From Thermoleptolyngbya sichuanensis A183 (lineage in GTDB: Bacteria > Cyanobacteriota > Cyanobacteriia > Elainellales > Elainellaceae): a stretch of 64,000 nt of DNA. The translations under genes and the position numbers were made by a program. The stretch spans positions 4,526,001 to 4,590,000 of the forward strand of contig NZ_CP053661.1 of the NCBI RefSeq assembly GCF_013177315.1. The letters run 5' to 3'. Each line of letters starts with the position of its first letter. The first letter of the stretch is position 1. This document shows positions 18,648 to 45,252 of the stretch, piece after piece. A model generated the notes under the pieces. That model had not been told where the DNA came from. It did no database searches and worked only from the letters and a program-made list of their open reading frames with translations.

Positions 18648-21600
18648 ATGAACCCCGATCCTGGTGCCACCCATCCCTCTAGCAGCCGTGCAGACGAAGC
18701 AGGGAGCGCTCGCCGTTATCAAGCCGTGGTGAATAGCCAAACCGAGCTAGTTTGCCGCTTTTTGCCCAATGGCGTGCTGACCTTTGTGAATTCGGCCTAT
18801 TGCGATCGCTTTGGCAAATCCGCAGCCGAACTGCTGGGGCAGCCCCTCGTCAACCTGGTTCATCCAAACGAGCAGGGCCGCGTCACTCAGCAGTTGACCG
18901 AAATTCAAACCCTGACCCCAGATAGCCCGGTTCAAACCCACGAACATTGGGTCTGGAGCGCAACGGGCGAAATGACCTGGTATGAGTGGATCGTCCAGGG
19001 CTTTTTTAACCCATCTGGCGAACTGATCGAACTGCAAGCCGTCGGGCGCGACGTGACTCGCCGCAAACAGATGGAGCTAGAGCTAGAGCGCTATCACCAG
19101 GAACAGCGCACCCTCAACCGCATTCTAACGCTCAGCCTAAACGCCCAATCTACGCCGGATGTGTTTCGCTGCATTGCCGAAGAGGTGCGGCAAGCGACGG
19201 GCTTTCTGATCGTGGCCATTGAGCGATATGACACGACCCGTCAGACGATGGTGTTTGAGGGGCTGTGTGGCGTGGATTGTTCGGCAGATCCAGCCGTCGG
19301 GGAAGCCATAGAGGGATGGGGCGGCGAATGGATTAATGAACAGACTCGCGAATGCAGGGGAGCCTGTACCCACGCGCCGACGCTGGAGTTTCCAGTTGCA
19401 GAAACCATGTCGGGCGTGGTCGCGCAAACGGGGCAAGCGCTGATCCGGCATTACGAACCTGAAGCGACGGTTCCGGGCGATCGCACGTCACTGCTGCGGG
19501 TGCTGGGGATCGCTACGTTCGTGTGCCTGCCGCTGACCGCAGACGGACGCACCCTCGGCACCCTTAGCCTGGGACATCCCCAGCGGCAGGAGGTGTCGCC
19601 ATCGCTGCTGGAATGGCTGCAAAGTCTATCGGGGGCGATCGCCGCCTTGCTCAAGCGCCAAGAGACAGAGCGATCGCTGCAAGCCTCGGAGCAGCGCTAC
19701 CGGCTGCTGTTTGAAAGCAATCCCCTGCCCATGTGGGTGTTTGACCTAGACACGCTGGCGTTTCTCATGGTGAATGAAGCGGCGGTGCAGAAATATGGCT
19801 ATAGCCGCGAGGAATTTCTCAGCATGACCCTGGCAGAAATCCGCCCACCAGAGGAGATTCCTCGGCTGCTGGCGATGATCTCTGCCGTGAATCAGGGCAT
19901 GGAAGATTCGGGCATCTGGCTACACACCCAAAAAGATGGCAGTCCGATCCAAGTGGAAATTACCTCGTACCGGCTCACCTACCAGGGGCGGCGGGCAGAA
20001 CTGGTGATCGCCAAAGACGTGACTGAACGATTACAAATCGAAGCGGCCCTGCGCGAAAGCCAGCGCAAATACGAAACCCTGTTTCAAACTGTGCCCGTGG
20101 GCATTGCTATGACGGATGAACAGGGTCGGATTGTGGAGGTGAATCCGGTACTGGAGGAAATGTTGGGCATTCCGGCGGTTGAGCAAACGCGCTATGCGTG
20201 CGATCGCCCTGCCCAGCCCATGCTGCGGCCAGACAGCACCCCCATGCCGCCAGAGGAATTCGCCAGCGTCCGCGCTCTGACAGCGCAACAGCCTGTTCAT
20301 AATGTTGAAAAGGGCATTGTTCGCGCCGACGGCTCTGTGCAATGGGTGAATGTCTGCGCTGCGCCGATTCCGCTAGAAAACTATGGCGTGGCGATCGCCT
20401 GCATCGATATTACCCAGCGAAAACAAGCCGAACTCGCCCTGCAAGACAGCGAAACGCGCTGGCAAACCGTCGTCCAGTCCACCAATGACGGCGTGTTTGA
20501 TGCAGACCTGATCACGGGCAAGACCTTCCACTCTGAGCGCTGGAAGACCATGCTGGGCCACCAGCCCGACGAACCCTCAGAAACCTACGAAGCGTGGGAG
20601 CAGCGCATCCATCCCGATGATCACGCGCGGGTCATGTCGGTTTACGAAGCCTACTGCCAGGGAGCGCTGCCCCTGTTTCGGGTCGAGTATCGGCTGCGCT
20701 GCAAAGACGGCAGCTACCGCTGGGTGCTAGATCGAGCGCAGATCCTCCGCGACGAACATGGTACGCCCGTGCGGATGATTGGCACCATGACCGATATCCA
20801 CCATCTCAAGGATGCGGAAGAAGCGCAAAGGCTCCAGGTAGAGCGGGAACGGCTGTTGTCTCGCGTGACGCGGCATATTCACCAGTCGCTCGATTTAAGC
20901 GAAATTTTGAACTCTGTGGTTACGGACGTGCGGCAGTTGTTTCAGTGCGATCGCGCTTTGATCTACCGCTTTCATCAGGTTTCCACGCAACCTGCCCAGG
21001 CGATTGTGGAATCGAGCTTGCCCGGTTGGGGCGTGGTGCTAGACGATCCCCAGGTCTGCGGTCGGGTCGAAGAAGTGCTATTGCGGCAATATGGCGATTC
21101 CCATAGGGATCGCTTCGCGAATCGCCCCAGCACCGAAGTTCAACCCACCCGCATCGACAACATTCACACGGCGAACCTCTCGCCAGAGTTTCGCGAGATG
21201 CTGACCCGCGTGGGCGTGCAATCTGGTCTGACCGTTGCCATCAACTGCGACGGCAATCTGTGGGGGCTGCTGTGTGTTCACCAATGCCAATCTTTGCGAG
21301 AGTGGCAGACCTGGGAGATAGATTTGCTGATGCAACTGGCCAACCAGTTGGCGATCGCCGTGCAGCAGTCGGAACTCTACAGCCAAGTGCAGCGGATCAA
21401 CGCCGAGCTAGAAACCAAAGTGGCCGAGCGCACGGGCGAACTGCGCCAGTCTCTTGAGTTCGAAGCCTTGCTCAAGCGAATTACTGACCAAGTCCGCGAT
21501 AGCCTCGACGAGCGCAAAATCTTGCAAACGGCGGTGCAAGAGCTGGGGCAGGCGCTTGGGGTCTTCTGCTGCGACACCGCGCTCTACGATGCCGAAAACC

Positions 21601-22855
21601 AGGTTTCCACCATCTACTGCGACTATACCCGCGAGGTTAAGTCCGAAGAGGGCACGCAGATCCTCATGGCAGACTATCCCGATCTCTATCGCCAGCTTTT
21701 GCAGGGAATGCATCAGCAGTTTTGCTATGCCAACGAGGTGACGCGCGATTCCCGTAGGGATCGCTTCGCGAATCGTCTGCTGACCCGCCCAGTGGCCAAA
21801 CACTGTACGATTTTTTCCTGCCCCATCCGAGACGATCAGGGAGTCCTGGGAGACATGGTGCTGCTGCGGCCCGCCGATGAATTCTTTAACGAGCTGGAGG
21901 TGCGGCTGGTGCAGCAGGTGGCCAACCAGTGCGCGATCGCCCTCCGCCAGTCTCGCCTCTATCAGGCCGCCCAGGCCCAGGTCACCGAACTGGCCCGCCT
22001 GAATCAGCTCAAAGACGACTTTCTTTGCACCATTTCCCATGAGCTACGAACCCCCGTCGCCAATGTCAAAATGGCAGCTCAGATGGTTGAAACAACCCTC
22101 CGAGCAGAGGGCATCCTCGACAACCCCAGCCATCCGCTAGGGCGCTATGTGCAGACTTTGCAAGAGGAATGTCAGCGAGAGATTAATCTAATCAACGACC
22201 TGCTTGACCTTTCCCGGCTCGATGCCGAAGTCGATCTGCTGCACCCTGTTCCCATTCACCTGCAATCCTGGATTTCCCACGTTGCGGAACCCTTCTTAGA
22301 CCGCATCCATCGCCACCAGCAGCACCTCAGCCTTGACCTGCCGCCCGACCTGCCGCCCCTCACCACCGACCTCAGCCACTTTGAGCGCATCCTCACTGAA
22401 TTGCTCAACAACGCCCGCAAATATACCCCCATCGGCGAACGCATCGAGGTGCGAGCCAGCCTCGTAAACAACGTCAGAAGTCGAACATGGTTGGATTCGC
22501 CATCGGCGAACGCATCGAGGTGCGAGCCAGCCTCAGCAGCGACCGCATGGAGCGCGACGAAGTGGAACAAGATGGAGCCGAATCTGAAAGCCCGCTCTCC
22601 AGCCCCCTTCCACTCCCTCACTTACTCATCACCATCACCAACACAGGGGTCGAAATCCCTCCAGAGGAGTGCGATCGCGTGTTTGATCGGTTTTATCGCA
22701 TCCCCAGCAGCGACCCCTGGAGGCACAGCGGCACTGGCCTGGGGCTGGCGCTGGTCAAAAAGCTCACGGAACTGCTGGGCGGCCGCATTGGCATTCGCAG
22801 CAGCGCAGGACAAACCACCGTCTGGCTCCGCCTTCCGCTCGTTCTGCGGCAGTGA
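18648..22855 (+). CDS. Multi-PAS/GAF sensor histidine kinase, frame broken near 22464
   Basis: Order by motif: PAS (~15-130), GAF (~155-335), three PAS/PAC units (~350-725), two GAFs (~745-915 and ~925-1110), HisKA with the H-box FLCTISHELRTPV (~1125) and a HATPase whose N-box is ELLNNARKYTP. There is no N-terminal membrane helix, so it should be cytoplasmic. Just after the N-box a 71-bp duplication (35-bp repeat plus 36-bp spacer) shifts the frame. The G1 (TNTGVEIPPE), F (FDRFYR) and G2 (GTGLGLALVKK) boxes are in the other frame and end at 22855. Without the duplication the protein would be 1378 residues. The shifted frame runs to 23060 as nonsense. It also carries two in-frame palindromic insertions. 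Kinase activity is doubtful as sequenced. Confidence 0.85.
21094..21125 (+). repeat. Dispersed palindromic repeat inserted in frame (copy 1)
   Basis: GCGATTCCCATAGGGATCGC followed by TTCGCGAATCGC; the outer GCGATTC/GAATCGC arms are inverted. It adds GDSHRDRFANR to the sixth sensor domain of the kinase. Related copies are at 21745, 30143 and 50280. Confidence 0.75.
21745..21775 (+). repeat. Dispersed palindromic repeat inserted in frame (copy 2)
   Basis: GCGATTCCCGTAGGGATCGC followed by TTCGCGAATCG, nearly identical to the copy 650 bp upstream. It encodes RDSRRDRFANR inside the last GAF domain of the kinase. Confidence 0.75.
22429..22534 (+). repeat. 35-bp direct repeat with 36-bp spacer that breaks the kinase frame
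   Basis: The two copies, 22429-22463 and 22500-22534, are identical over 35 bp and both translate as IGERIEVRASL, each in its own frame. The repeat unit of 71 bp is not a multiple of three. Confidence 0.9.
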
Positions 22856-37627: not shown

Positions 37628-37920
37628 GGTTCCCCCCTTACTAAGGGGGGCTAGGGGGGATCAAGACTCCTGCATCTAATTCGATCCCCCTAAATCCCCC
37701 TTAAAAAGGGGACTTTGAGGAGTCTGGTTCCCCCCTTAGTAAGGGGGGCTAGGGGGGATCAAGACTCCTGCATCTAATCCGATCCCCCTAAATCCCCCTT
37801 AAAAAGGGGGACTTTGAGGAGTCTGGTTCCCCCCTTGCTAAGGGGGGCTAGGGGGGATCAAGACTCCTGCATCTAATTCGATCCCCCTAAATCCCCCTTC
37901 AAAAGGGAGACTTTGAGCAG
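37628..37920. repeat. Three tandem 98-99-bp palindromic units between nrtD and narB
   Basis: Units begin GGTTCCCCCCTTA at 37628, 37726 and 37825. Each contains GGGGGGCTAGGGGGGATC, a spacer AAGACTCCTGCATCTAAT and then GATCCCCCTAAATCCCCCTT, which can pair with the first part. The third is slightly diverged at its end. The units fill almost the whole 339-bp gap. The core is shared with 15874-16345 and 10333. Confidence 0.85.
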
Positions 37921-37943
37921 GGCGATAGCAAAGGGTTAACCAA

Positions 37944-44738: not shown

Positions 44739-44913
44739 CGCTCGTCAAATCCCTAGTTTCTTCGACGCATCGGGAGCTTAAACTACAACTACTCCTGCAA
44801 GCACTCCTACAACCGCTATTCGCTATCGCTATTTGTACCGCTATTGGATAAAGGACCAGATGCAGGTCTCCACACTCGTCAGCCCCTATTGGTTAACGAG
44901 TTTACTACAACCC

Positions 44914-45252
44914 CTATTGGATAAAGTGCCAGATGCAGGGGTAGCGATAGGGGCGCTCCAGGTTGGTGGCAGCGTTCACCATTGCAATAATGGGCATGAT
45001 TGTGCTGACAATTACCAATCCAATTAGCAGCGGAATGCCAATCAGCACGAAGCACAGCACCAGGAAAATCACGCCCCAGATCAGCACCGTCAGGTAAAAG
45101 TTGATGGCTTCTTTGGCATTGCCCTGCACGATGGGATCATCCGAAATCAGCAGCAAGACGATGGGCACTGCAACTGATACCAGCGAATAGCAAATCAACT
45201 GCGACCCGTGGCAGAGAACTGAATAGAGCTTGCGCTGTTCGAGGTCAGTCAT
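44914..45252 (-). CDS. DUF4870 (Tic20-like) small membrane protein
   Basis: A 112-residue protein with three hydrophobic helices: LICYSLVSVAVPIVLLLI, the NAKEAINFYLTVLIWGVIF segment and LIGIPLLIGLVIVSTIMPIIAM. The motif D-P-x-V-Q-x-x-x-K-E-A-x-N-F is characteristic of DUF4870. Function is unknown; these proteins are distantly like Tic20. A near-duplicate of its last codons and stop lies just downstream (44839-44864). Confidence 0.8.
   Translation of the reverse strand: MTDLEQRKLYSVLCHGSQLICYSLVSVAVPIVLLLISDDPIVQGNAKEAINFYLTVLIWGVIFLVLCFVLIGIPLLIGLVIVSTIMPIIAMVNAATNLERPYRYPCIWHFIQ

Follow-up and report, generated by a model that had tools for sequence, protein, structure and literature searches.

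A sensor histidine kinase gene in a 64-kb stretch of the Thermoleptolyngbya sichuanensis A183 genome (NZ_CP053661.1, positions 4,526,001 to 4,590,000; this whole stretch is the window, and positions are counted from its first letter) is interrupted by a unit of 71 bp. We conclude that the unit very probably arose by ectopic, that is off-target, integration of a spacer of the CRISPR (clustered regularly interspaced short palindromic repeats) system by RT-Cas1–Cas2, whose Cas1 is fused to a reverse transcriptase (RT), and that the integrase acted as a natural insertional mutagen, causing a recent knockout of the kinase. Spacer addition by Cas1–Cas2 is expected to yield an insertion of about 36 bp together with a duplication of a 35-bp target, and this is the structure found in the gene.

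The unit lies in the HATPase domain of a PAS/GAF/HisKA kinase, where it separates the N-box from the G1/F/G2 boxes (Table 1). Two perfect direct repeats separated by 36 bp mark it; 35 bp is the exact repeat length because the bases outside each end differ. Rather than a tandem duplication, the unit is made up of 36 bp of inserted sequence foreign to the site and one extra copy of a 35-bp target. The kinase frame that opens at 18648 and encodes HisKA and the N-box is shifted at the unit and continues out of frame until 23060. What remains of HATPase_c is read in the other frame and covers only positions 37–109 of the Pfam profile PF02518, so the N-box part lies across the unit. From 18648 to 22855 there are 4,208 bp, and removal of 71 bp leaves 4,137 bp, or 1,378 codons plus a stop. 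Our analysis thereby confirms what an original prediction, made from the letters of the window, had said of the repeat copies, the spacer between them, their placement among the kinase boxes, the frame shift and the length of the restored gene. On the basis of the reading frames, the added 71 bp probably inactivate the kinase. Chance can be excluded: the two repeat copies agree at all 35 bp, and the spacer recurs with 36 of 36 positions at a second site in the genome, in a match that stops at both spacer boundaries. An Rfam search of the window gave no match.

This second site was found by searching the strain's own genome with the 36-bp insert. It is the reverse complement of the insert (G000:C1:1299909-1299944), on the opposite strand and 3.2 Mb from the kinase, directly upstream of a gene for a 64-residue NblA protein (PF04485). 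In a genome of the same genus, G001 (Cyanobacteria bacterium J069), the region upstream of nblA is conserved at its native place, with 88% over a stretch covering most of the donor and the start of the gene. It is therefore the copy in the kinase that is derived.

The kinase itself is uninterrupted in G001, where the ortholog forms one frame of about 1,400 codons without the 71-bp unit. The original prediction had proposed such a comparison, and had left the choice between a reversible ON/OFF switch and a very recent knockout. The second of these is supported, because the two copies are still identical, the frame downstream is intact and the same-genus ortholog is whole; the switch is not supported. 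The event is better read as a one-way knockout, with rare loss by recombination at most; the assembled sequence showed no sign of toggling. Three further events detected in the T. sichuanensis genome bear on G001 too. At the event in L177 the site is clearly empty, both copies matching one single stretch of G001 and the insert missing, and the units of L005 and L027 are likewise absent. In a genome from another genus of the family, G013, a homologous kinase (L089:1670-1778) carries a 72-bp in-frame unit in the same N-box-to-G1-box linker, with copies of 35–36 bp (two mismatches) around a middle of 36–37 bp; this is perhaps a scar of the same kind, tolerated because it is in frame.

We scanned 1.705 Mb of the 5.5-Mb T. 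sichuanensis genome in all, including 80 further 20-kb stretches, looking for direct repeats spaced 40–160 bp apart, mismatches allowed. Sixteen loci share the anatomy of the kinase event, with units of 69–78 bp, targets unrelated to one another and inserts likewise; the rest of the output consisted of simple repeats, tandem coding repeats and elements resembling miniature inverted-repeat transposable elements (MITEs), and an equal search of other repeat lengths and spacings returned these classes only. A joint maximum-likelihood estimate of the duplication length over the match profiles of the 16 loci was 35 bp (log-likelihood lower by 7.3 at 34 and by 7.0 at 36). The optimum stayed at 35 when any single event was dropped, and also without two decayed loci that are individually weak (window 44837 and L179 19343). 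If a 35-bp target is assumed, the 16 inserts measure 34–43 bp. The copies have diverged at 10 of the 16 loci, by one to seven positions, and are identical at six, the kinase included. Most events lie at gene ends or outside large genes, as judged by open reading frames only; among them, the clearest disruption of a gene is that of the kinase. The rate is about 9.4 events per Mb, and the whole genome appears to hold roughly 50 scars that differ in age.

The duplication length agrees with the CRISPR machinery of the strain. Its only Cas1 match is a 755-residue RT-Cas1 fusion (RVT_1 at 77–293, Cas1 at 450–710; Cas_Cas1 272.7 bits) with no internal stops and with a YADD motif, as RNA-capturing type III adaptation would require. 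The cas2 gene adjoins that of RT-Cas1, and both frames are intact; nearby are weak matches to type III effector genes (Cas10 palm, RAMP, Csx10-like and Csx7-like). The solved chain closest to RT-Cas1 by sequence is the Cas6-RT-Cas1 of structure 7kft, and Pfam found RT and Cas1 domains only, with no N-terminal Cas6 domain. The main array adjoins the RT-Cas1 locus and has 103 repeats of 35 bp, with spacers of 39.2 ± 4.3 bp on average (range 31–54 bp). Two further arrays, at 4.33 and 5.18 Mb, likewise have 35-bp repeats, so the target duplication matches the repeat length of every array found. The unit lengths of the 16 loci were not distinguishable from those of the main array (Kolmogorov–Smirnov test, P = 0.52). 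Two observations concern the main array itself. One of its 102 spacers (spacer 46; array in L004) matches the strain's own genome, at G000:C1:270956-270998 within an acetyltransferase-like reading frame. At L006:16227-16980, the sequence beside the first, slightly degenerate repeat recurs as several tandem 191-bp copies, each with about 29 bp of the CRISPR repeat, and a leader multiplied or damaged in this way might be related to off-target integration.

The inserts also resemble spacers in composition. Their G+C content is 0.495, compared with 0.47 for array spacers and 0.566 for random genome samples, only 0.28% of which are as low; the duplicated targets have a G+C content like that of the genome. 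A comparison of the inserts with local flanks, taken by itself, gives no significant difference (P = 0.09). Aligned in the better orientation, the targets share an average of 11.8 of 35 positions with the array repeat, only a weak excess over the 10.1 of random sites. They are not identical to it, as the repeats of a canonical array would be, and no clear end motif was seen among 14 target sites. The features expected of off-target integration by Cas1–Cas2 were found: a duplication equal to the repeat length, an insert of spacer length, for the kinase event a cellular source of the insert, intact cas1 and cas2, and empty sites in the same-genus genome.

In the mechanism we propose, the RT-Cas1–Cas2 integrase would have been loaded with a prespacer of 36 bp that matches the sequence immediately upstream of the strain's own nblA. 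Two staggered transesterifications would then have placed this prespacer not at the leader end of the array but in the kinase gene, at an arbitrary site of 35 bp, and gap fill-in would have duplicated the target as the repeat is duplicated in an array. The gain of 71 bp would shift the frame within the HATPase domain and inactivate the kinase, and the same integrase would have left the other scars, some nine per Mb and of differing age. The piece captured in the kinase stems from directly upstream of nblA, plausibly from within its 5′ leader, where DNA and RNA would carry the same sequence. An RNA origin would fit the RT domain and the location of the source ahead of a gene, with the sequence equally compatible with DNA. 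A broader proposal is possible but rather doubtful: that RT-Cas1 reverse-transcribes RNAs of the cell and of phages and inserts the products with low fidelity at arbitrary chromosomal sites, so that CRISPR adaptation is a genome-wide retro-insertional mutagen and the kinase carries a piece of the nblA transcript leader.

Other origins of the unit are improbable to differing degrees. Repair is known to yield templated insertions with duplications, and a genomic template for the insert exists, so a template-switching or break-repair accident could have produced a 35-bp duplication and a 36-bp filler from nblA with no involvement of CRISPR. Such an accident, however, predicts neither a constant duplication of 35 bp at 16 sites nor inserts of spacer-like length, and we regard it as very unlikely. 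A phase switch, in which recombination or slippage between the direct repeats removes and restores the unit and so toggles the kinase, is somewhat less likely still. Direct repeats of such size can recombine, and the frame past the unit is still open, but the spacer was copied from nblA and not from the repeat or its flanks, so an insert once lost could not be regenerated by slippage. Fifteen other sites with the same anatomy, mostly outside large genes, also speak against a switch, as do the diverged copies at 10 of the 16 sites, which show that such units persist and are not quickly excised.

Still less probable is that the unit was left by a transposon, or by an element resembling a casposon, that duplicates 35 bp at its target site. 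Cas1-family integrases also mobilize casposons, which produce target duplications, according to two reports (PMC4150552, PMC4046053). Yet the inserts here are only 34–43 bp long, mutually unrelated and without a shared terminal sequence in this sample, and the single Cas1 found is located in the CRISPR locus. An artefact of assembly or sequencing is the least probable origin: although a perfect repeat in one assembly can be an error, 16 loci have the same geometry, the copies have diverged at ten of them, the insert is genuine sequence from a distant part of the genome, and the genome is in one contig.

Several points weigh against off-target spacer integration by RT-Cas1–Cas2. That this integrase made the insertions is something we infer. 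An exact source in the strain's own genome was found for only one of the 16 inserts, that from nblA; another looks like a dispersed simple repeat. With 13 inserts joined into one concatenate, phage records gave no credible match, and two inserts scanned exactly in IMG/VR had none. The scan favours matches of about 20 bp or more, and the 16 loci were picked by eye from its output. Finally, RT-Cas1 alone is no guarantee of scars, as in G044 (RT-Cas1 74% identical, 34-bp repeats) 306 kb contained no events besides real arrays. The same was true of 400 kb of G003, which has a Cas1 without RT. Taken together, the two samples (0.7 Mb) nevertheless count in favour of the explanation: at the rate of the T. 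sichuanensis genome, the chance of zero events in them is about 0.001, which makes the rate look specific to this lineage and not general to carriers of RT-Cas1. A further genome, G011, has an RT-Cas1 that is 81% identical and 35-bp repeats.

Some repeats met in the scan are of other kinds. A direct-repeat candidate at L051 10290 turned out to be a tandem repeat and was discarded, and MITE-like repeats at L178, L029 and L031 were left out of the count together with a cluster of a 28-bp repeat in L053. This cluster (L053:11572-11780; repeat CTGTGGTGAATAAAAACCACGGAGACAC) has irregular spacing and forms no regular array. Within the window, a palindromic repeat of the CCCCCTAAATCCCCCTTA type occurs at 37628–37930 in tandem units of 98–99 bp, and similar MITE-like repeats occur elsewhere in the genome.

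Table 1 Features of the interrupted kinase gene and a possible second event in the window
Feature	Position	Strand	Basis
5′ part of PAS/GAF/HisKA sensor histidine kinase gene, through HATPase N-box and target copy 1	18648..22463	+	Open reading frame; Pfam PAS, GAF, HisKA
Target-site copy 1, 35 bp, same length as the genome's CRISPR repeats	22429..22463	+	Repeat comparison
Insert, 36 bp, spacer-sized, reverse complement of nblA upstream region	22464..22499	+	36/36 identity; donor in native place in sister genome
Target-site copy 2, 35 bp	22500..22534	+	Repeat comparison
3′ kinase remnant (G1/F/G2 boxes), shifted frame; ATG inside insert	22487..22855	+	Open reading frame; HATPase_c profile 37–109
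Possible second event (weak), older and decayed, with a 73-bp unit and 7 mismatches over 35; not in a large gene	44835..44942		Direct-repeat scan

The usual view is that CRISPR adaptation is site-specific and that off-target integration comes from overexpression or from reactions in the test tube. If our explanation is true, about 50 natural scars of the correct length, one of them breaking a large signalling gene, would show a real cost of CRISPR adaptation. A target duplication equal to the repeat length around a spacer-sized insert would then serve as a signature for integrase fidelity across genomes, the diverged copies at older sites as a relative clock, and the inserts as a record of what the integrase captures, free of the selection that acts on the array.

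Among the closest known systems is the purified Cas6-RT-Cas1–Cas2 integrase (7kft/7kfu), in which full-site integration duplicates 35 bp and 12 of 14 full-site events fell at the leader–repeat junction, with 2 of 14 elsewhere (PMC8102632). Its RT-Cas1 is homologous to the one described here, and both the duplication length and the minority of off-target events are alike; it differs in that it was studied in vitro and has an N-terminal Cas6 domain, which is absent here. Ectopic acquisition at CRISPR1 and CRISPR3 of Streptococcus thermophilus, as described in two reports (PMC7999890, PMC5338259), also inserts a spacer away from the leader end, but does so inside the array, whereas the sites here are unrelated chromosomal sequence. 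In E. coli, overexpression of Cas1–Cas2 causes spacers to integrate in the genome outside the array, possibly with effects on fitness (Nivala, Shipman and Church 2018, doi 10.1038/s41564-017-0097-z, as cited in PMC11788318 and PMC9456107). As far as those citations describe it, that system shares the integration at non-array sites and differs in its overexpression; here a cyanobacterium whose RT-Cas1 belongs to type III carries natural chromosomal scars, many per genome, some of them old and one breaking a large gene with a self-derived insert. Off-target integration is already known from E. coli overexpression and in vitro; what would be new is a natural genome with some 50 scars, one of which disrupts a gene with a piece of the cell's own sequence.
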